A program made the translations under genes and the position numbers. Below, piece after piece: positions 2,462 through 64,000 of a stretch of DNA of 64,000 nucleotides. The DNA is from Eggerthellaceae bacterium (GTDB taxonomy: Bacteria > Actinomycetota > Coriobacteriia > Coriobacteriales > Eggerthellaceae): contig WRIR01000004.1 of NCBI GenBank assembly GCA_009782605.1, forward strand, positions 1-64,000. Reading direction: 5' to 3'. Position 1 is the first letter of the stretch; each line of letters opens with the position of its first letter. Below the pieces are notes generated by a model. The model did not search any database and had not been told where the DNA came from. It saw only the letters and a list, made by a program, of their open reading frames with translations.

Positions 2462-2885
2462 GGCTGCCTTCCTCAAGGGTCTTGGCGATGCGGCCTAACA
2501 CCCCGTTCACGAACCGGGGGGACTCGTCCTCCCCGCCGAAATCCTTTGCCAGCTCGACGGCTTCGTTGATGGAGACCGACAGCGGCACGTCCTCGACATG
2601 GAGCATCTCGTACACCGCAAGCCGCAGGATGGACCTGTCCACGATGGGCATGCGCTCAAGCGCCCAGTTCTCCGAGGTGTTCTTCAGGTAGTCGTCAATG
2701 CTTTCCCGGTGTGCCTGCACCCCGGCAAGGAGGGCCAGCGCGTAGTTATCGAGGATCCCCGCCTCGTCGATATGCTGTTCGCCTGCGGCAATATTTGACG
2801 GCGGCTCTTCGAGCACCTCGCTTTGGTAGAGCACCTGCAGGGCGCAACGGCGAGCCGACGTGCGTTCGTGTCGTTTGGCGGGCAT
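2451..2885 (-). CDS. nusB: Transcription antitermination factor NusB
   Basis: NusB binds boxA RNA with S10 in rRNA antitermination. The 144-aa sequence opens with the basic RTSARRCALQVLYQSEV segment typical of NusB and ends with INEAVELAKDFGGEDESPRF, the family's C-terminal signature. It sits between asp23 and xseB in the leftward operon and overlaps xseB by a few bases. No strong ribosome site is seen before its ATG, which suggests coupling from upstream. Confidence 0.94.
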   Translation of the reverse strand: MPAKRHERTSARRCALQVLYQSEVLEEPPSNIAAGEQHIDEAGILDNYALALLAGVQAHRESIDDYLKNTSENWALERMPIVDRSILRLAVYEMLHVEDVPLSVSINEAVELAKDFGGEDESPRFVNGVLGRIAKTLEEGSHGK

Positions 2886-2911
2886 GGAAAGGTCAGGCTT
2901 CGGTCGAGGGG

Positions 2912-3262
2912 TCAGCTGCCGAACTGGATGCCGTCGACATAGACATCGACGCTTGAGACGGGGATACCCACCTGGCTTGCCACGGCATCCGCGACTGAGC
3001 TGCGAATGCCCGACGCCACGTCAGGCAGCGAGGACCCGTATGCGACGTCGATCCTGACCGAGACATGCAGCTTGTCGTCGTCGGTCACCTCGATGTCGAC
3101 ACCCTGCGTCGTGTTCCGGGTTCCGAACATCGAACGGAAATTGCCCACGCCCGACGAGCCGACCGTAGCAACCCCCTCGACCTCCTGTGCGGCTATCGAC
3201 ACGATAGTCTCCACGACGCCCGGCGCAAGCGCCATCCCGTCAATGTTGAGGTTGGTCATCAT
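2912..3262 (-). CDS. Asp23/Gls24-family envelope stress protein
   Basis: 116 aa with the Asp23 layout: [29 protein letters not shown] at the start and a beta-rich middle ending [26 protein letters not shown]. Family members are membrane-associated or cytoplasmic envelope-stress proteins, and in actinobacteria and firmicutes they commonly lie in accC-nusB clusters, as here. The start ATG overlaps the accC stop as ATGA, with GGGAGA before it. A second ATG follows immediately. Confidence 0.88.
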
Positions 3263-7541: not shown

Positions 7542-8303
7542 ATGAAAAAAAACATTACGGAAAACCCCTCCCCTCCCCGACGATTAGTGCGTATCCGAAG
7601 GGCCGCGTCGATGCTGCTGGCGGCCGTCGGGCTGCTGGCGGCCATAGAGGCGGTGTCGCTGGTTGCATCGGTGGTGTCAGGCGGCGGGCGCGGCGGCCCC
7701 TCGGTGCCTGTCGGCGAGGGTGCCCCGGCAGGAGCCATCCGGCCAGGAGCCGAGACCGTACCCGAGATCACTCCCCTTTTCGCGACGCCCGACATCCCCA
7801 GCTGGGTGTTCCTGGTCGCCGCCTTGGGCATACTGGGGGCCGCCCTCCTGGGCTATGCGGGAATCAAGACGCTCTCACGGCTGCCCCGGGGCGGAAAACC
7901 CGCGGGCCGCACGGCTGACGGCGGAGAGACCGAGGGCGTTGAGGACGGGGATACCGAAGACGAGGTGCCTGAGGGCGAAGCGCTCGACAGCGAAGGGATC
8001 AGCGGCTGGGAGGTGGCCGACGGCTGGGAGGCTGGCGATGGGGAGGTTGGGAGCGAGGGGGCTGGCGGGGAAGCGCCCGGCAGCCGGAAGGTTGACGGCA
8101 CGGTGGCCGAGAGCGAGGAAGCTGGCGGCCGGGAGGTTGACGACAGCGAAAGGGCTGGTGGCAGGGAGGCTATCGGCAGGGCTCCCGGAGGCACGAGGCA
8201 CGGCAAGGCGAGACACAGCAGCAGAGAGCTCAGCAAGGTCCCCGATAGACCCGCTGTAAGCAGAGGAAAGCACGCACGCAAGGGCCGCCACGAAAAGATA
8301 TGA
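7542..8303 (+). CDS. Two-pass membrane protein with repetitive Gly/Glu-rich tail, function unknown
   Basis: 253 aa; I do not recognise the family. Two hydrophobic segments lie at about residues 20-45 (after a basic N-terminus) and 86-108, then from about 115 a long, low-complexity hydrophilic region built from variants of GWEVADGWEAGDGEVG and EEAGGREVDD, ending in a basic His/Lys/Arg stretch (SRGKHARKGRHEKI). The tail is acidic then basic and is likely to be disordered. GAGGGG lies 13 nt before the ATG. It is transcribed away from the riboswitch region and followed at once by the RAYT palindrome. The coding repeats make slippage or recombination likely. Confidence 0.6.
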   Translation: MKKNITENPSPPRRLVRIRRAASMLLAAVGLLAAIEAVSLVASVVSGGGRGGPSVPVGEGAPAGAIRPGAETVPEITPLFATPDIPSWVFLVAALGILGAALLGYAGIKTLSRLPRGGKPAGRTADGGETEGVEDGDTEDEVPEGEALDSEGISGWEVADGWEAGDGEVGSEGAGGEAPGSRKVDGTVAESEEAGGREVDDSERAGGREAIGRAPGGTRHGKARHSSRELSKVPDRPAVSRGKHARKGRHEKI

Positions 8304-8315
8304 TGTAAAGGTAGG

Positions 8316-8435
8316 TGACAAGGGAAAGTTTGACAAGGGGACGGGGCGTTTGTCAACTTTCGGGACGTTCGGGGACAAGTATGCCTGTCAAAAGTTGACA
8401 AACGCCCCGTCCCCTTGTCAAACTTTCCCTTGTCA
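8316..8435. repeat. REP-like palindrome, left flank of RAYT
   Basis: A perfect 45-bp inverted repeat (8316-8360 against 8391-8435) surrounds a 30-nt loop. The inner arm contains TGACAAGGGGACGGGGCG and TTTGTCAAC. The outermost three bases of the right arm are the stop codon of the RAYT gene. The loop is the reverse complement of the loop of the right-flank palindrome at 9263-9358, so the two elements lie in opposite orientation. Outside the common core this copy carries an extra TGACAAGGGAAAGTT arm extension. Confidence 0.9.
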
Positions 8436-9200
8436 ACTTTTACACTTTGCTACGATGCCCCTGGAAACGCCTGTCAGCCTTTCTATCTGGCGTATCGAAA
8501 AACCCCTATCTCGTAATACGGCCAAGATGGCATCCCGCTGGTTCTTGGGCAACCCCGCAATGGTGCTCGACTCTATTCCCCCAAGGGCGGAAAGGAACTC
8601 CTGCCGAACCTCCTCCTTGGTCTTTTTGACCTCTTCGGAATAGGAGTAGTCGTTGCTTTCCAGGGTATCGTGAAATGCTGCAAACTCCCTGGCTGCCACT
8701 TCGGGATCCAAGGAGAACATCCCAAGCACAAGACGCGTGTCGGTCAGAAGGGAATGCCCCTTTATGTAATCGCAATAGCTGTTCCATCGATATCCGTCAG
8801 CCGCTCGGCTTAAGCCTGCAAACAGGGGGTTTTGATGGATGTAGCGGACAAGCGTGAGAAGGTACTCGTCGCTCTCAACGGCTTCGCTTCTGTAGCGGTT
8901 CGCGATGAGGGCGCCGCTTCGCCCGTATTTCCTATTGAACCAATAGGCGTAAGGAGCTAGCATCTTTGCCATTATCTTGGTGATATCACCCGGGGAGCGC
9001 TCATTGAGCAGGAGATGCACGTGGTTGTCCAACATGCAGTATGCCAACACCTTGAATCCCAGTTCTGCTTTCACGTTTGCAAGAAGATCGAGCAGTTTTG
9101 CAAAGTCTTCCTCTTCCTCAAACAGATTGCAGCGGTTCACACCACGGAATATGATGTGGTAGATGCCGCTCTCGCTTAGCTGTCGCGCATGTCTTGGCAT
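8433..9200 (-). CDS. REP-associated tyrosine transposase (RAYT, TnpA_REP / Y1_Tnp)
   Basis: 255 aa from ATG 9198-9200 (GGATGGGGGC before it); an earlier in-frame start at 9251 is possible. The opening MPRHARQLSESGIYHIIFRGVNR, the metal-binding DNHVHLLL (HUH motif), the YAYWFNRKYGRSGALIANRY helix with candidate catalytic Tyr, and RYIHQNPL are standard for RAYTs, the domesticated IS200/IS605-like single-strand transposases. An added C-terminal helix-turn-helix (FSIRQIERLTGVSRGIVAK) resembles DnaA/terminal HTH extensions. It is bounded by two palindromes in opposite orientation, the classical RAYT-REP arrangement. The gene is leftward and isolated from both neighbours. Confidence 0.93.
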   Translation of the reverse strand: MPRHARQLSESGIYHIIFRGVNRCNLFEEEEDFAKLLDLLANVKAELGFKVLAYCMLDNHVHLLLNERSPGDITKIMAKMLAPYAYWFNRKYGRSGALIANRYRSEAVESDEYLLTLVRYIHQNPLFAGLSRAADGYRWNSYCDYIKGHSLLTDTRLVLGMFSLDPEVAAREFAAFHDTLESNDYSYSEEVKKTKEEVRQEFLSALGGIESSTIAGLPKNQRDAILAVLRDRGFSIRQIERLTGVSRGIVAKCKS

Positions 9201-9262
9201 GTTGCCCCCATCCATGGGAATCATATTGTCGCCAATATTGTAGCAGAGCACAGGTGATTAGA

Positions 9263-9358
9263 GGTTGACAAGGGGACGGGGCGTTTGTCAACTTTTGACA
9301 GGCATACTTGTCCCCGAACGTCCCGGAAGTTGACAAACGCCCCGTCCCCTTGTCAACC
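9263..9358. repeat. REP-like palindrome, right flank of RAYT
   Basis: A perfect 32-bp inverted repeat (9263-9294 and 9327-9358) with a 32-nt loop. Arm and loop match the left-flank copy in reverse orientation. It lies 60 bp upstream of the RAYT start, so the transposase with its two palindromes spans 8316-9358. Confidence 0.9.
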
Positions 9359-9489
9359 CCTAATGAGCAGAAAAACAACATACTTTGACGGTGCATCGAG
9401 GGGGGTTTGGCGGTATAATGAGGCATCTTATTTAGTGGTCTTTGAGGGTTCCTTGCTAAATATAGTGGTTCGTGAAGGATTATTGCTGC

Positions 9490-10560
9490 ATGCAACACCG
9501 TATCGTGAAAAGAGGCAAAGCCTTTTCCCTGACAGCCGTCCTGGCGTGTGGGGCGCTTGTCTTTTCCCTCGGTGGCACGGGCATGGCCTATGCCGACAAC
9601 ACCGAGATTGAGGAACTCCTTACCGAAACCGGCGAGCGACTTGAGCAGACCGCCAAGGATTATGACGAGGCCGCAGAGAAGGTGAAGGCCCTCCAGACGC
9701 AGGTCGAAGAGAACCGGCTCAAGATAGAAGTGCTCGAACACGACATCCCCGTGCAGGAAGAGAAGGGTGCCGTCGCCATGGTCGCCCTCTACAAGATGCA
9801 GCAGGAGGGCTTCTCCCTCATCAACATGATACTTGACGCGTCGAGCCTCGACGAGTTCATCTCCTCTATCGAATACCTCAACACGGTCCACCAGATAAAC
9901 ATGAACGAGGTCGTCAGGCTGCGCGTCATGAAGACGGAGCTGCAAGAGACCCGGGACGCCTTGCAGGAGAACAAGAAGGCTGCCGACGCCGAAATGCTGC
10001 GTGCCGAGGAAGCCTTGGAAGAGGCGAAGGCCGCCCGCGAGGAAGCACAGCGCAAGGCCGAGGAAGAGGCTGCCCGTATCGAGGCTGCCCGCCTAGCAGA
10101 GCTTGCCTGGCAGGAGCAGCAGGCAAACGGCGGCACCGGGGACGGCTCCCCGCATATGTCGGGGCCCTCTTCACTGAGTGGAATCGACTGGACGCTTGAC
10201 AGGGATACCTTCGTCTCCCTGTGGGCAGGCCGAATAGACGCATACCTGGCCGGCTCCCCGCTCACCGGGCAAGGGTATACCTTTGCGGAGGCCGCCTGGA
10301 GGTATGGCGTCGACCCCCGCTTCTCTCCGGCAATCTCGTGTATCGAGAGCTCCAAGGGAAGGTACTGCTTCCTCCAGCACAACGCCTGGGGCTGGGGCAA
10401 TATCAGCTGGCCCAATTGGGAAACAGCGATAGACACCCACGTCAGGGGCCTCGCGAACGGCTACGGGGGCACGGTGTCGGTCTGGGGGGCCCAAAAATAC
10501 TGCCCGCCCAACTGGCAGCACTGGTACAACACGACCCTCAGCGAAATGGGCCGGATTTAA
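9490..10560 (+). CDS. Secreted coiled-coil peptidoglycan hydrolase
   Basis: 356 aa. A signal peptide (basic start, hydrophobic core, cut near AYA-DN) is followed by a long coiled coil (about residues 40-200, ending in an Ala/Glu-rich EEAQRKAEEEAARIEAARLAE run) like the N-terminus of PcsB/CwlO-type proteins. A linker then leads to a C-terminal domain of about 120 aa with FAEAAWRYGVDPRFSPAISCIESSKG and NAWGWGNISWPNW, which resembles glucosaminidase/lysozyme-like muramidases with a catalytic Glu. It probably cleaves cell-wall peptidoglycan outside the cell. ATG 9490 is chosen because GAAGGA precedes it; an in-frame GTG at 9472 is an alternative. A TATAAT lies at 9414-9419. Confidence 0.8.
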   Translation: MQHRIVKRGKAFSLTAVLACGALVFSLGGTGMAYADNTEIEELLTETGERLEQTAKDYDEAAEKVKALQTQVEENRLKIEVLEHDIPVQEEKGAVAMVALYKMQQEGFSLINMILDASSLDEFISSIEYLNTVHQINMNEVVRLRVMKTELQETRDALQENKKAADAEMLRAEEALEEAKAAREEAQRKAEEEAARIEAARLAELAWQEQQANGGTGDGSPHMSGPSSLSGIDWTLDRDTFVSLWAGRIDAYLAGSPLTGQGYTFAEAAWRYGVDPRFSPAISCIESSKGRYCFLQHNAWGWGNISWPNWETAIDTHVRGLANGYGGTVSVWGAQKYCPPNWQHWYNTTLSEMGRI

Positions 10561-58115: not shown

Positions 58116-58943
58116 CTATCGCAGTATCCACATGTCGTAGCTGATGCCCTGGTCGGCATATGCCTTGCATATCTTCTCGACCGTGCCGTCGGCCACCATT
58201 TCCCTCAGGGTGTCCTCGATTATGTCGCGCAGCTCGGTATTGCCCTTCAGAAAGCCGACGCCATAGTGCTCGGAGGAAAGCGGGTCGCTCTCAAGGATGA
58301 GGAAGGTGCTCTCCTTGCCGACGACCTGGAACCGCGCAACCGGCAGGTCCATGGCAACCGCGTCGATCGTCCCGCTCTCAAGCTCCATGAAGGCGCTGTT
58401 GTAGTCGGCGACGGTCATCAGCTTCCCGAAGGTCGCTGCCAATTCCCCCTGGTCGCCGTCCGCCTCAAGGAGGTAGAAGGCCGCGCTGTCAACCTGTGCC
58501 ATGACTGTCTTGCCGGACAAGTCGCCGAGCGCCTTGATGCCCGAATCAGCTTTTACGACAATGACCTGGCTGTTGTCCATGTAGGGACTGGTGAAGGTGT
58601 AGTCGTCTTCGCGTCCCTGGATGGTAAAACCGTTCCAGATGCAGTCGATTGCGCCGCTGGATATCTCAAGATCCTTGGTATCCCAGTTGATGGGCTTGTA
58701 CTCCACTTCCCAGCCAAGGCGGTCGCACACCTCTTTGGCGAGGTCGAGGTCGAATCCGGTGAACTCGCCGTCGTCGCCCACATAGCCGTAGGGCGGAAAA
58801 TCCTGGTCGAACCCGACGATCAGGGCCGAGCGCTCTGCCGCTGTGCCCCCGCCACCCTGTGTGCCGCCACACCCTGCCAGCATGAAAACCGCCAGGCAAA
58901 AAGCGAGGCCCAGGCCTATCGTCGTGATTAACTTCCTTTTCAT
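58116..58943 (-). CDS. Polar amino-acid ABC transporter, substrate-binding lipoprotein
   Basis: 275 aa from ATG 58941-58943 (AAGGAGGG upstream). Lipoprotein signal MKRKLITTIGLGLAFCLAVF...LAGC, then a family 3 solute-binding fold: VGFDQDFPPYGYVGDDGEFTGFDLDLAKEV, NWDTKDLEISSGAIDCIWNG, FTSPYMDNSQVIVV and GVGFLKGNTELRD. The ligand is probably a polar amino acid; which one is not decided by sequence. Confidence 0.93.
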   Translation of the reverse strand: MKRKLITTIGLGLAFCLAVFMLAGCGGTQGGGGTAAERSALIVGFDQDFPPYGYVGDDGEFTGFDLDLAKEVCDRLGWEVEYKPINWDTKDLEISSGAIDCIWNGFTIQGREDDYTFTSPYMDNSQVIVVKADSGIKALGDLSGKTVMAQVDSAAFYLLEADGDQGELAATFGKLMTVADYNSAFMELESGTIDAVAMDLPVARFQVVGKESTFLILESDPLSSEHYGVGFLKGNTELRDIIEDTLREMVADGTVEKICKAYADQGISYDMWILR

Positions 58944-59100
58944 ACTTCTTCCCTCCTTCTTGCGCTCCCCTTGAGCGCTCCCTTTGGTTGTGCCTTGCAC
59001 TCCATAACGGTATCGTGCTAAAGCACTACCCAGTATATCACAGTCCTGTACGCAACCGGGAAAAGAAGCAGCTGACAACTCATGGGGACAGGGGGCCAAG

Positions 59101-59262
59101 TGTGACAAGGGGCCGTATAGCTTCCACGTTTCCTTTGGCTTCTTAACAGGAGTGGGTGACAGGGGGACGGGGCGTTTGTCACGTTTTGGTGTACTCAGGG
59201 ATAGGCATGTTTATCAAAACGTGACAAACGCCCCGTCCCCCTGTCACCGTCCCCCTGTCACC
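59101..59262. repeat. REP-like palindrome type A copy 3 with half-repeats
   Basis: A perfect 33-bp inverted repeat (59156-59188 and 59215-59247) with a 26-nt loop. The arm contains GACGGGGCGTTTGTCA as in the RAYT flanks, but begins GTGACAGGGGG. On its left (59102-59118) is half of a type B arm (GTGACAAGGGGCCGTAT). On its right (59248-59262) the end CGTCCCCCTGTCACC is duplicated. The loop shares AGGCAT with the RAYT-flank loop but is otherwise different. Confidence 0.85.
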
Positions 59263-59453: not shown

Positions 59454-62400
59454 CTAGCAGTCCTCCTTGTCTGCCTTCAGCGACCTGCGGCGGTAGAGTG
59501 CCCCCGCGCCGAGCGCGGTTGCGCTCGCGGCCATGAGGAGCAGCAGGCTCCACGCGTTGGTGTCGTCGCCCGTCTTCGGGCCTGCCTTCGGCTGCTCGAC
59601 CGGCGTCGGCGTCGGCGGGGTCGGAGGCGTGGGCTCGGGCGCGGGCGGGTCGGGGAGCTTGGTCCACTGGGCGTAGACGGTCATGTCGCTCAAGACCGGC
59701 GTATCCACGGTGAACTCGGTGCCGCCCTCGGGCGTGGTGGCCCAGTGCACGAAGGTGTAGCCCTCGCGCACAGGCGAGCTGGGCAGGTAGCTCAAGGTCG
59801 TCGCAGGCTCCTGCACGTAGATCACCGCAGGCCCGGTCAGGGTGCCGCCGTTCGGGTCGAAGTTGACTGCGAAGCGGTCGTACTCCTCGGGTTCGGGCTC
59901 GGTGACGGTCGCGGTTATCTCCTTGGTCGTCGCGGGCTCTTCCACCACCGCTATCACCGGGTGGTACTCACCGGCGGCGTTGGTGTAGCCGCCCTGGTCG
60001 GCGACCATGACAGAGGCTGGCGTGCCGTCGAAGCTGGCGGCGACTGCCATCGAGTGCAGGATTATCTGGTCTTCCGCGGACATCAGGGCCATCTGGCCCT
60101 CCACGGCCGCAGCGCTAAGGCCTGCGGTATCGACGTCTGCCGCGGCGATGGTGAAGTCGTAGGCAGACAGGATGTAGTCCTCGCCGAAGACGAAGCTGCC
60201 GTCGTCGACCACTACCGCGGTGTACTCTATGGCCTCGTTGCCGTCGGAGTCCACGACGCGCAGGGCGACCTTGTAGATGCCGGGCACGTCGCCGGGCACG
60301 TCGCCCTCGACGGTGATCTGGCTGGTGAGGTCGCCGTCCTCGGCGTCATAGGCAGTCGAGGTGCCAATCCTCTGGGCGTCGGTGAGGTTGCCCGGGGTCG
60401 AGGACACCGGGACGACAACCGGGCGCTGGGGGGTGATCGTCGGGGGCTCGCCCTCGACGACTTCAACGTTGAGCGTGATCTCGACATAGCCTTCTGCGTC
60501 AGATATCTTCACGACGTAGTTGCCGGGCTCTGCCGCAAAACCGCCGTCGTCGACTATCTTGACATCCTTGAGGGTCTCGCCCGTGCCCGGGTGGACAAGG
60601 GTGGCCCCGCCGAGGATAGCCTCGATAAGCGCGTCGTCAGATATCAGGCGGTCGTTCTCAAGCAGGCTCATCGTGCCCGCGTCCATCGGGCGCAGGGCGA
60701 CGATAAGGGCAGCCTCGGAAACCTTCATCGTGACGTTCTGGCCGAAGACATACATCCGCGGGCCGAAGGGGTCGTCGGGGTCGAGCGGCGCGCTCGCCAG
60801 GGCATCGGCTTCAACGACGATGCCCTTCACCAGCTCCGTGACCGTACCCGAGGGCAGGTCCGGCGCGCTGATGCTTATGTCGTAGCTGTCCACGACGTTC
60901 GTGTAGCCGCCCGTGTCTGCAACCGACAGCAGCGACGCGGGAAGCTCTTCCCCGGTCTCGCCGTCGAAGAGGCGGGCGTTGGTCATGCTCAAAAGATGCG
61001 CCGGGATGGCCGCGGCAGAGGCCGGGACGTCCACGGTCCTTATCATGAAGGAGTTGGCCTGGATGATGCGGCCCGCACCCACGATGTAGCGCCCGTCGTT
61101 GACGATGACGCTGCGTTGGGCCGTTGCCGTGCCGTTCACGTCGGAGACCTCGTAGGTGAGCTGGTAGATGCCGGCCTTGGAGGTGTCGACTGGGCGCGCC
61201 GGGTCGGTCGGGGCATAGGTGACCTGGTCGATGAGGTCGCGGCCACCCTCGTCGGTGGCGGTGACACCGTCCATAGCAGCTGCCTCGTCCCAGGTGCTCC
61301 CTATCGCGACCTCGACAGGCGTCGTCACGGTGAGCGTGGGAGGTGCGGTGCCGACAACCGTGCCGGTGATGTCGCGGACAGGGTCGCCGCTGTAGCCGGG
61401 CTCGGCGGCCGAGATGCCTATCTGGATCGGCGTGTAGGCCTTCGGGGCAGACGAGTAGCCGGCATTGTCTTTCACGACAAGCAGGTGGTCGACCGCGATG
61501 GGAAGCAGCGCTTCCTCAGCCGGGTCGTTGGCGGCGATGCGCCAGGCATGGGCCTGGGCGGCCTCCAGCACCTCGGCGTCGGTGCCCGTCACGTCGCGGG
61601 CCAATATGGTGAAGTCCTGGGCCTCGACGGCGTAGTCGCCGTCGATGACGAAGCGCCCGTCGTTGACCAGCACCCTGTCAGTCTTGACGGCAGTGTTGCC
61701 GTCGGAGTCGGTCACGGAATAGGCAATCGTGTGGAACCCGATCCGGCCCATGTCGATGGGGTCGGCCTTCTCGACGAAGTCGCCGGATGCGTCAGGGACG
61801 CCCCAGACCAGAAGCGCGGTCAGGTCGCCGTCCTCGACATCGGTGGCCGTGACGGCGGGAGTGTTGCCGGGGCCGTACACGTAGTCCCACTCGGCGGGCA
61901 GGACTGCGCCTGCCGGCTTGTCGGCCGCGTCTCCCGTCCATATGACGCGCATCGGCGGCAGCGATATCTCGGGATGGTTGCCCTGCGACACGATGGCGTT
62001 GACAGTCACCGTGGCCGTGTGGTCCTCGTCCACCCAGAAGGTGACCGGGACGACGGTCGGGTAGCCCGGCTCGCCTTCGCGGGCGAAGTCGGCCGTCTTA
62101 AAGCCGCCGTCGTCGGTGAGGGCCGGAGTGCCGTCCGACGCGAGGTTGGAGCCGGTGCGCAGGAAGCTTGCCGCCCCCGAGCGCGCAACGAACTCGTCGC
62201 CGTAGGCAGGCATGTCCTTCGCCTGCAGGGCAAGCGCGTCGGCGATGTTGATGCGGAAGTCGGATGCCGTGATGGAGTAGAGCTCCCCGTTGCCGGCCGC
62301 GACGCCCTCGGGCAGCACGCGGGCGGTGATGTCCTTGGTCAGGGCTGCCCACTCTTGTATGCCGATCGTCGGGTGGTAGTCGGTCGGGACGGCGGAGTAG

Positions 62401-64000
62401 CCGCCGTCGGCCAGGACAAAGGCCGTTGCCGGGGTTCCGTCGGCCTTCCAGGCCTGGGCCTTCGAGAGGTCCATTATCTGGGCTGTGGTGCCTGCCACGA
62501 CATCGGCGGACTGGATGATGAAGGAGCTTGCCTGGATGACGTAGTTGTCGTCATAGGCTATAGAGCCGTCGTTGACGATGAAGGCACGGGTCACCTGGGC
62601 GGTATTGCCGTCGGAGTCGGTGACGAAGTAGGTGACCGGGGTCACCGAAGCCGCATTCAAGGGAATCGTCGGCAGAACTTCTGCGCCGTCGGCATCCGGG
62701 TTGACAACGACCCAGTCGGTGATGTCGCCGTCCTCGTCGTCGTCGGCCACAACGCCTTCCATGAGCATGTCGCGGGTCGCAACATCCGTGCTCGCCGGGT
62801 CGGCTGCGACCTCAAGCGGCGTGGGGGTGGCGGTTATCGTCGGTGCGGCGCCGTCGGTCACCTGGACGGTGAGCTCGACACGGGCCATCTCGTCGGGGTC
62901 TTCCGCCGTCACGACCACGGTATAGGTGCCTTGCGCGGCCATGAAGCCGCCATCGTCGGCCAGGGTCGGGGCGAGCACCTCGACCATGCTGGTCGGCGTG
63001 GTCTTCAAGGCGCCGGCGCCCAGGGCCTCAAGCAGGGCCACGGTCGGGTCAGCCTCGGCCAGGATGGCCTCGGCCTCGCCGGTGCGCAGCGTGATGTCGT
63101 TGCCGAATACGTAGTAGTTGTCCTTGTCGGGGTCGTTGGGGCCCGAATCGATGAAGGCCGCGTCGACGACCACGCCGGTGATGGCGCGGTCAAGGGTGCC
63201 GCTCGGGTCGTCGTTGCCGCGGACCGTGATGCCGTAGCTGCCCGCAACCGGGCCGTAGCCGCCGTCGCTTGCAACAAAGGGTGCGACCGATGCCGCCTCG
63301 CCGGTGTCGCCCTCATAGAGCGCGGCGTTCGACTTGGCAAGGATATCCTGGTCGTAGGGAGCCGCAACGTCCTTCACAAGGGTCACGAAGGAGTTTGCCA
63401 TGAGGATGCGGCCGTCGCCCACTGTGTAGCGGCCGTCGTTGACCACGACGACACGCGAACCTTCGACGGTGTTGTCGTCGGAATCGGTCACGGAATAGTG
63501 CACCACATAGCGCCCGACCGTACCCGTGTCAACGGGGCCAGTCGCCGCGTCGGGGGTCACCACGACGAAGTCGATCAGGTCGCCGTCCTCCACGTCGGTG
63601 GCCGTGACGGCGTAAAGGTCGTCAGTGTAGGCGCTCGGCAGGATGGAGCCCGCCGGTTGCGGCAGCGATGCGTCGCCGACCCATATCTCAACCGGGGTCT
63701 TCACGGTAAGGACCGGCATCTCGCCCTGGGTGACCAGGCCGTCTATAGTCGCGCTCTGCATATCTGCCGGGATGGTGTCGATGCTGAATGTGACAGGATA
63801 GGTGTCCGCCACAGCGTCGAAATTGCCGGTGTCTTCCACAAGCGGCAAAAGCACGGGCAGGCCCGGCACAAGCGGGATAACCCGGGCACGGGCCCAGTCG
63901 ATGTAGCTTTGCGGGGCACCGGCAAGTATCTCGGCCGCCTCGCGCAGGTTGGCGCGGAAGTGGTTGGCCACAAGCGCGTAGCTTGAGTCCTTGCCGCCTG
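59454..64000 (-). CDS. Giant Ig-like-repeat surface protein with InlB repeat and sorting signal (5' end outside window)
   Basis: More than 1510 residues are visible, and the frame is open through the right edge, so the GTG at 63971 is not a real start. Five modules of about 270 aa recur, each with TATDVEDGDL, YSVTDSDGNT and a VVNDGRY-like landmark followed by ANSF/ASSF, as in bacterial Ig-like (DUF5011/HYR-type) domains. Near the C-terminus are an InlB/Listeria-Bacteroides repeat (VNFDPNGGTLTG...GYTFVHWATTPEGG...YAQWTK), a Pro/Thr spacer, and a sorting-type end GPKTGDD, hydrophobic helix, RRRSLKADKEDC. This looks like sortase anchoring with G in place of L in LPxTG. Likely adhesin or stalk. 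Confidence 0.88.
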   Translation of the reverse strand, partial: GGKDSSYALVANHFRANLREAAEILAGAPQSYIDWARARVIPLVPGLPVLLPLVEDTGNFDAVADTYPVTFSIDTIPADMQSATIDGLVTQGEMPVLTVKTPVEIWVGDASLPQPAGSILPSAYTDDLYAVTATDVEDGDLIDFVVVTPDAATGPVDTGTVGRYVVHYSVTDSDDNTVEGSRVVVVNDGRYTVGDGRILMANSFVTLVKDVAAPYDQDILAKSNAALYEGDTGEAASVAPFVASDGGYGPVAGSYGITVRGNDDPSGTLDRAITGVVVDAAFIDSGPNDPDKDNYYVFGNDITLRTGEAEAILAEADPTVALLEALGAGALKTTPTSMVEVLAPTLADDGGFMAAQGTYTVVVTAEDPDEMARVELTVQVTDGAAPTITATPTPLEVAADPASTDVATRDMLMEGVVADDDEDGDITDWVVVNPDADGAEVLPTIPLNAASVTPVTYFVTDSDGNTAQVTRAFIVNDGSIAYDDNYVIQASSFIIQSADVVAGTTAQIMDLSKAQAWKADGTPATAFVLADGGYSAVPTDYHPTIGIQEWAALTKDITARVLPEGVAAGNGELYSITASDFRINIADALALQAKDMPAYGDEFVARSGAASFLRTGSNLASDGTPALTDDGGFKTADFAREGEPGYPTVVPVTFWVDEDHTATVTVNAIVSQGNHPEISLPPMRVIWTGDAADKPAGAVLPAEWDYVYGPGNTPAVTATDVEDGDLTALLVWGVPDASGDFVEKADPIDMGRIGFHTIAYSVTDSDGNTAVKTDRVLVNDGRFVIDGDYAVEAQDFTILARDVTGTDAEVLEAAQAHAWRIAANDPAEEALLPIAVDHLLVVKDNAGYSSAPKAYTPIQIGISAAEPGYSGDPVRDITGTVVGTAPPTLTVTTPVEVAIGSTWDEAAAMDGVTATDEGGRDLIDQVTYAPTDPARPVDTSKAGIYQLTYEVSDVNGTATAQRSVIVNDGRYIVGAGRIIQANSFMIRTVDVPASAAAIPAHLLSMTNARLFDGETGEELPASLLSVADTGGYTNVVDSYDISISAPDLPSGTVTELVKGIVVEADALASAPLDPDDPFGPRMYVFGQNVTMKVSEAALIVALRPMDAGTMSLLENDRLISDDALIEAILGGATLVHPGTGETLKDVKIVDDGGFAAEPGNYVVKISDAEGYVEITLNVEVVEGEPPTITPQRPVVVPVSSTPGNLTDAQRIGTSTAYDAEDGDLTSQITVEGDVPGDVPGIYKVALRVVDSDGNEAIEYTAVVVDDGSFVFGEDYILSAYDFTIAAADVDTAGLSAAAVEGQMALMSAEDQIILHSMAVAASFDGTPASVMVADQGGYTNAAGEYHPVIAVVEEPATTKEITATVTEPEPEEYDRFAVNFDPNGGTLTGPAVIYVQEPATTLSYLPSSPVREGYTFVHWATTPEGGTEFTVDTPVLSDMTVYAQWTKLPDPPAPEPTPPTPPTPTPVEQPKAGPKTGDDTNAWSLLLLMAASATALGAGALYRRRSLKADKEDC

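Follow-up and report, generated by a model that had tools for sequence, protein, structure and literature searches.

The window, as we call the 64,000-nt stretch of DNA analysed here, carries what is probably a mobile RAYT transposase unit of the TIRYT type together with reduced, dispersed copies of its ends. We put at roughly 0.75 the probability of the following explanation: the locus is a REPIN-RAYT-REPIN unit of a Coriobacteriia-like bacterium, with its two REPINs in opposite orientation; the RAYT has a cognate 27-nt REP; and the REPINs scattered through the genome are non-autonomous, MITE-like derivatives moved in trans. The result bears on the origin of REPINs and on whether RAYT genes are mobile.

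A direct check of the window sequence gave perfect 45-bp arms at 8316-8360 and 8391-8435 and perfect 32-bp arms at 9263-9294 and 9327-9358, so the inverted repeats described in an earlier, sequence-only reading of this DNA were exact to the base. That reading was also right that the loops are mutually reverse-complementary, the 30-nt loop at 8361-8390 recurring intact and inverted within the loop of the second hairpin, and that the palindrome forms the stop codon of the RAYT gene, which falls at 8433-8435 within the outer arm. With one mismatch allowed in each, the arms grow to 48 nt on the 3' side and 38 nt on the 5' side, and the two hairpins together make up a 95-nt inverted repeat (98% identity) that encloses the gene. 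Against shuffled sequence, the single-strand folds have z-scores of -15.3 for the 3'-side hairpin and -14.5 for the 5'-side hairpin. The 3'-side REPIN occupies 8313-8438, with inverted REPs at 8330-8356 and 8395-8421; the 5'-side REPIN occupies 9257-9364, with REPs at 9265-9291 and 9330-9356. Between them, on the minus strand, lie the RAYT gene (8433-9200) and its 5' leader (9201-9256), which contains TACAATATTGGCGACAATATGATT, a sequence that, judged by eye only, resembles a portion of the sister RAYTs' leader.

The most likely start of this RAYT, hereafter RAYT1, is the ATG at 9200, which is conserved in relatives and gives a protein of 255 aa; a longer 272-aa version of the ORF (8433-9251, minus strand) starts at 9251. 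RAYT1 matches the Pfam family Y1_Tnp at 53-55 bits and the NCBIfam family REP_Tyr_transpos at 59 bits, under the latter's cut-off of 80. In an alignment of 26 proteins, H60, H62 and Y120 are invariant, corresponding to an HUH motif (H60-x-H62) and a single catalytic tyrosine, and conservation extends to the C-terminal motif GFSIRQIERLTGVSRG. The AlphaFold model (mean pLDDT 88.5) has as its top structural match in the PDB 4er8, which is E. coli TnpAREP with a REP hairpin (E 1.4e-7), and a sequence-profile search of the PDB returned 4er8 as its sole match. That motif and the confident helices at 211-252 of the model point to an additional C-terminal helix-turn-helix (HTH), where Pfam HTH matches are weak and sub-threshold. 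Taken together, the family matches and the best fold agree with the earlier identification of the gene as a RAYT. The protein is a RAYT-type HUH/Y1 transposase other than the proteobacterial GTAG type.

The 27-nt REP, TTGACAAACGCCCCGTCCCCTTGTCAA, has six matches in the window where none are expected. In the assembly of the host genome (G000; 1.95 Mb, 83% complete), we found 12 matches with at most three mismatches, all in inverted pairs at an offset of 65 nt, at six places: C4:8325, C4:9260, C4:59151, C16:7708, C19:10180 and C19:17002. The third of these is the dispersed REPIN at 59151-59252 of the window, between the minus-strand ORFs 58116-59108 and 59454-63971. The palindromes thus do occur elsewhere in the genome, a check that the sequence-only reading had proposed. 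Because all 12 matches fall in inverted pairs, the long palindrome is a REPIN, that is, two short REPs around a spacer; what had been taken for arms longer than the usual 20-30 nt REPs is a short REP of 27 nt paired with its inverted copy, and that REP has a 7-bp stem capped by a G/C-rich loop of 13 nt. When the six copies are aligned, the core is near-invariant, the positions outside and inside it vary yet stay paired, and the loop is conserved among copies. Nine stem pairs are changed on both sides, a count that none of 500 shuffles reached and that slid versions of the alignment fell far below, with the proviso that six sequences are few and that kinship among copies can inflate such counts. 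Rfam held no matching family, the 18-nt core had no exact match in viral contigs, and searches of phage and plasmid records gave distant relatives only.

Hairpin pairs of other classes are also present in G000; one such family, GTGACAAGGGGCCGTATAACYTGTCAC with its near variants, occupies five places (C12:300, C14:54327, 56379 and 57205, and C25:4011). A RAYT with matching ends was not found in the 83%-complete assembly; this is either an orphan family or one whose RAYT is missing from the assembly.

The link between repeat and transposase was examined in a comparison set of 397 genomes of the order, in which exact patterns were used to look for cognate pairs. The exact REP is confined to G000 and two other genomes, G385 and G386, and RAYT relatives 69-70% identical to RAYT1 mark exactly the same group, the next best elsewhere being 54% identical. 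The genus mates of G000 in the set, G001 and G002, have neither a RAYT1-like gene nor the exact repeat. G385 and G386 share one genus, in a family other than that of G000, so they and G000 count as two independent occurrences, not three. Since the repeats are dispersed and occur only in genomes with a RAYT1-like transposase, they look like the RAYT's own mobile, stripped-down copies, and the hairpins are likely the cognate repeats of RAYT1. Palindromes equally common in relatives without a RAYT would have spoken against such a tie; across the 397 genomes, the exact repeat does not show that pattern.

We also searched with a covariance model, R1, representing any similar long hairpin pair. Because the long, G/C-rich palindromes that R1 matches fall into many sequence classes, its matches in relatives serve for a coarse association only: 20 of 43 genomes had such matches where a RAYT-type gene was present, and 11 of 57 where it was not (Fisher p 0.005), with RAYT-type status judged by score among the matches listed. 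A genome in which no RAYT is seen can therefore still contain hairpin pairs. The connection drawn in the sequence-only reading between palindrome and RAYT thus stands for the exact repeat, while related hairpin pairs of other classes are found, less often, in genomes with no RAYT detected as well. One complete genome, G030 (one contig, 99% complete), has 20 R1 matches with both strands counted (for example, C1:73220), the pair at the one place inspected being of the GTGACAGGGGGACGTACCTGCTGTCAC type, and lacks a Y1_Tnp match altogether.

In both G385 and G386 the sister RAYT has REPs at its two ends in inverted orientation, and the genes are intact, the stops reported within them lying upstream of the start codon. 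The G385 unit is the same as that in the public MAG Lab288P1bin85, where the sister RAYT lies in another gene neighbourhood yet is flanked by the same inverted REPs. In the RAYT tree, RAYT1 groups with the G385 and G386 proteins (0.995), and a second RAYT of G000, RAYT2, stands beside them (0.971); both are nested in a clade otherwise made up of the G385/G386 family (support 1.0). The simplest reading of this tree is that RAYT1 would have reached G000 by horizontal transfer, the alternative origin being ancestral presence followed by loss.

RAYT relatives are present in 211 of the 397 genomes, and units of this kind turned out to be common in the order. Flanking inverted repeats scoring at least 15 occur at 31 of the 36 distinct RAYT loci with usable flanks, as counted by hand after removal of duplicates and one truncated locus; 20 shuffles per locus peak at 9-14. 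An automatic, cruder version of the count gave 25 of 41 RAYT loci versus none of eight IS200-type genes. Most of these repeats share the pattern TGACA-n-GGGGAC[GA]G...TGTCA. RAYT2 (C4:96965; 54% identical to RAYT1) is bounded by an inverted repeat of its own, GACAAAGGGGCCGGGGCATTTTGTC, whose three matches across G000 at up to two mismatches are all at the RAYT2 locus, with no dispersed copies found. Being restricted to its own locus, this repeat is uninformative as a second test of cognate pairing.

By its HTH domain and its ends, the unit fits the TIRYT/TIRtron kind described by Di Nocera et al. (2013, PMC3733652), which Quentin et al. (2018, PMC6006769) provisionally equated with TnpAY1 subclass 2.1. 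The likeness consists of a RAYT-like HUH/Y1 protein whose C-terminus carries an HTH, terminal inverted repeats (TIRs) in place of GTAG REPs, a GGGG-rich core, TIRs that are partly self-complementary, and moderately abundant, dispersed TIR families that are often dimers. The inverted-repeat ends of the window unit have a GGGGAC core. The fuller core, however, is GGGGACGG here (GGGGCCGG at RAYT2), at least one base off GGGGWSAS: GGGGACGG agrees with that motif at seven of eight positions, and several relatives in the order carry an exact GGGGACAG. GGGGWSAS was reported for some TIRs and is not strict, TIRs without the motif also being listed (PMC3733652). Further differences are that a complete REPIN forms each end here, its 30-nt loop resembling the RAYT leader of sister elements, and that the unit is hosted by a Coriobacteriia-like actinobacterium. 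In Actinobacteridae, Quentin et al. (PMC6006769) reported subclass 1.1 alone; they saw no REPs next to genes of subclass 2.1, and called for further analysis of the TIRYT link. The contrast with proteobacterial REPs that the sequence-only reading singled out is to be expected, since a non-GTAG class to which this system belongs had been described before. The locus is thus mostly explained as a TIRYT/TIRtron member in a lineage without a description in the cited TIRYT literature; what is new here are intermediates tying REPINs to internal deletion of a RAYT unit, and signs that the unit moves.

Other known systems resemble the locus in part. Like the REPIN/RAYT systems (REPtrons) of Pseudomonas and E. 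coli, it has genome-scattered inverted pairs of short REPs around a short spacer and one cognate RAYT whose gene is flanked by the repeats; unlike them, it has a 7-bp REP stem with a 13-nt loop, a RAYT of another class, and hairpin feet that lack a conserved GT[AG]G guide. GT[AG]G lies 5' of the foot in one of six hairpins (just before 8314), and no conserved guide tetranucleotide was found at the six G000 hairpins. As in MITEs, short elements seem to keep both ends after internal deletion and to be mobilised in trans, although the ends here are hairpin-forming REPs of a single-strand transposase and not the terminal repeats of a DDE transposase.

The loops of the REPINs carry a further sign of their origin. 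The leader that follows the 5' REP in G385 is CAACTTTGATACAATGTATGACAAGTAAAGACTACCAAAG, and the loop of the REPIN at C19:10180/10185 is CATCTTTCGATACGCTTGAGAACAAGTACGTCTACCAAAAG; the two align in the same register after the REP with a score of 28, which none of 2,000 shuffles equalled. Over the six REPINs, likeness to the G385 leader is strong in this one, moderate in two (p 0.003 at C16:7708/7713 and 0.0125 at C19:17002/17007), marginal in the two that flank RAYT1 (p 0.02-0.06) and not significant in that at C4:59151/59156. The inner end of the 3' REP of the sister unit (CAAAAGATGACAAACG) matches the right side of the REPIN, and REPIN ends are identical to the ends of the RAYT unit. Because the loop resembles the leader and the 3' REP end matches, REPINs can be read as REP-RAYT-REP minus the interior from leader to 3' end. 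They look like internal-deletion, MITE-type derivatives of the unit; the reverse direction would be the gain of a RAYT gene inside a REPIN.

Intermediates of the kind such a derivation would leave exist in G385, where C48 carries the full unit and we found four further copies consisting of REP, leader, the 3' part of the RAYT and 3' REP (C31:1405-1837, 2682-3120 and 7557-7988; C49 about 9967-10401, reversed). These deltaRAYT copies share one common deletion junction, are 93-95% identical, and end at the REPs, with unrelated flanks. The simplest reading would be that a deletion happened once and that the shortened unit then multiplied, which suggests that the whole REP-RAYT-REP unit can move. 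The contigs C31, C48 and C49 share a perfect repeat of 113-123 nt at their ends, so the deleted copies are probably in one neighbourhood, close to the full copy and an Rhs gene, and local hopping or cassette shuffling could contribute to them. On C48, the full sister unit comes after an Rhs-repeat gene and a small ORF; the deleted units on C31 sit between small ORFs, and all three contigs break at the shared repeat. For empty sites of the deleted units, matching flanks were absent in G386, G072, G387 and G388.

The RAYT locus itself is variable within the genus. G002 keeps the genes on either side, with a gap of about 0.5 kb versus 2.2 kb in the window; both the RAYT unit and the ORF at 7542-8303 are missing, and the intergenic DNA has diverged. 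The edges in G002 are unreadable, and a clean empty site with exact boundaries was not found at this locus; around the REPIN at C4:59151, neither G001 nor G002 preserves the gene order on the two sides. The proposal of a self-contained mobile element in the sequence-only reading thus gains comparative support from the G385 copies and lacks a clean empty site. That REP-RAYT-REP is a true single-strand transposon moving as a unit, with REPINs arising by internal deletion, is a stronger claim, to which we give even odds. The series would run from the full unit through the deltaRAYT unit (about 430 bp, G385) and the REPIN with a leader remnant (about 100 bp, G000) to REP dimers with 10-20-nt loops (G385 and G386). 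Were it true, it would give REPINs a direct origin and contradict the view that RAYT genes do not move.

By analogy with IS608/ISDra2 and E. coli TnpAREP, an inverted REP pair on an exposed strand, probably the lagging-strand template, would fold into a long hairpin; the HUH/Y1 protein would bind the folded single strand and cleave it through Tyr120, forming a 5'-phosphotyrosine, before strand transfer elsewhere. Such cutting and rejoining may spread the repeats and, occasionally, the whole unit. The scattered REPINs, which retain the two ends plus a short stretch of the RAYT leader, would be mobilised in trans by the RAYT; what the genome comparison shows is that repeat and gene occur together. 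With a GT[AG]G guide at one of six hairpin feet, recognition must differ in detail from that of canonical REPs, and our guess is that specificity may come from the C-terminal HTH.

RAYTs have been regarded as domesticated, evidence of tnpAREP mobility being said to be lacking (PMC8266576), and this published view favours an account in which the RAYT does housekeeping, the repeats are immobile, and the hairpins are kept as RNA or DNA structures acting as transcription stops, mRNA-stability elements or fork-pausing elements. Stem covariation would follow equally from selection on RNA hairpins, and the intergenic position of one REPIN and the stop codon within a hairpin fit as well. We nevertheless consider domestication unlikely, given the absence of the unit from the corresponding G002 locus, the two sister units in different neighbourhoods, the multiplication of a deleted unit between unrelated flanks in G385, the nesting of the RAYT in a clade of another family, and the lack of a matching Rfam family.

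Less probable still is an account in which the RAYT is a passenger and the repeats spread because long palindromes recombine or slip during replication, or because Rhs/immunity-like cassettes are shuffled. The clustering of the G385 copies near an Rhs gene, on contigs broken at a shared repeat, would suit it, as would the many tandem copies of the outer arm module GTGACAAGGGGACGGGA next to a REPIN at C4:81518-81584 of G386; but it leaves unexplained both the tight pairing of the exact repeat with the RAYT in the 397 genomes and the near-generality of inverted repeats at RAYTs, which IS200-type genes lack. That the unit is an ordinary IS200/IS605 insertion sequence (such as IS608 or ISDra2) with subterminal hairpins is very improbable. 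It shares with that family the Y1 HUH catalytic domain and fold and hairpin ends, and differs by score, length and end structure: against the 53-55 bits of RAYT1 with Y1_Tnp, IS200-type proteins of the order score about 89-139 and the class of RAYT1 mostly about 30-64; the protein is longer and has a C-terminal HTH; the unit has no tnpB-like ORF; and it has long inverted repeats at both ends, which none of the eight IS200-type genes counted in the order has. The TIRYT-type unit with REPINs moved in trans remains the best explanation.

The experimental work cited here concerns proteobacterial GTAG systems. At least one genome, G385, holds intermediates between full unit and REPIN, and these, with the RAYT loci of the order, are natural substrates for tests of binding, cleavage and unit transposition.

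Two neighbouring genes in the window deserve mention. The plus-strand ORF at 7542-8303 encodes a 253-aa product that has membrane-like segments and ends in an acidic tail rich in repeats (direct repeats at 7985-8172). The minus-strand ORF at 59454-63971, next to the dispersed REPIN, encodes a repetitive, surface-type protein of 1,505 aa that ends in a sorting-signal-like GPKTGD motif, a membrane segment and a basic tail.
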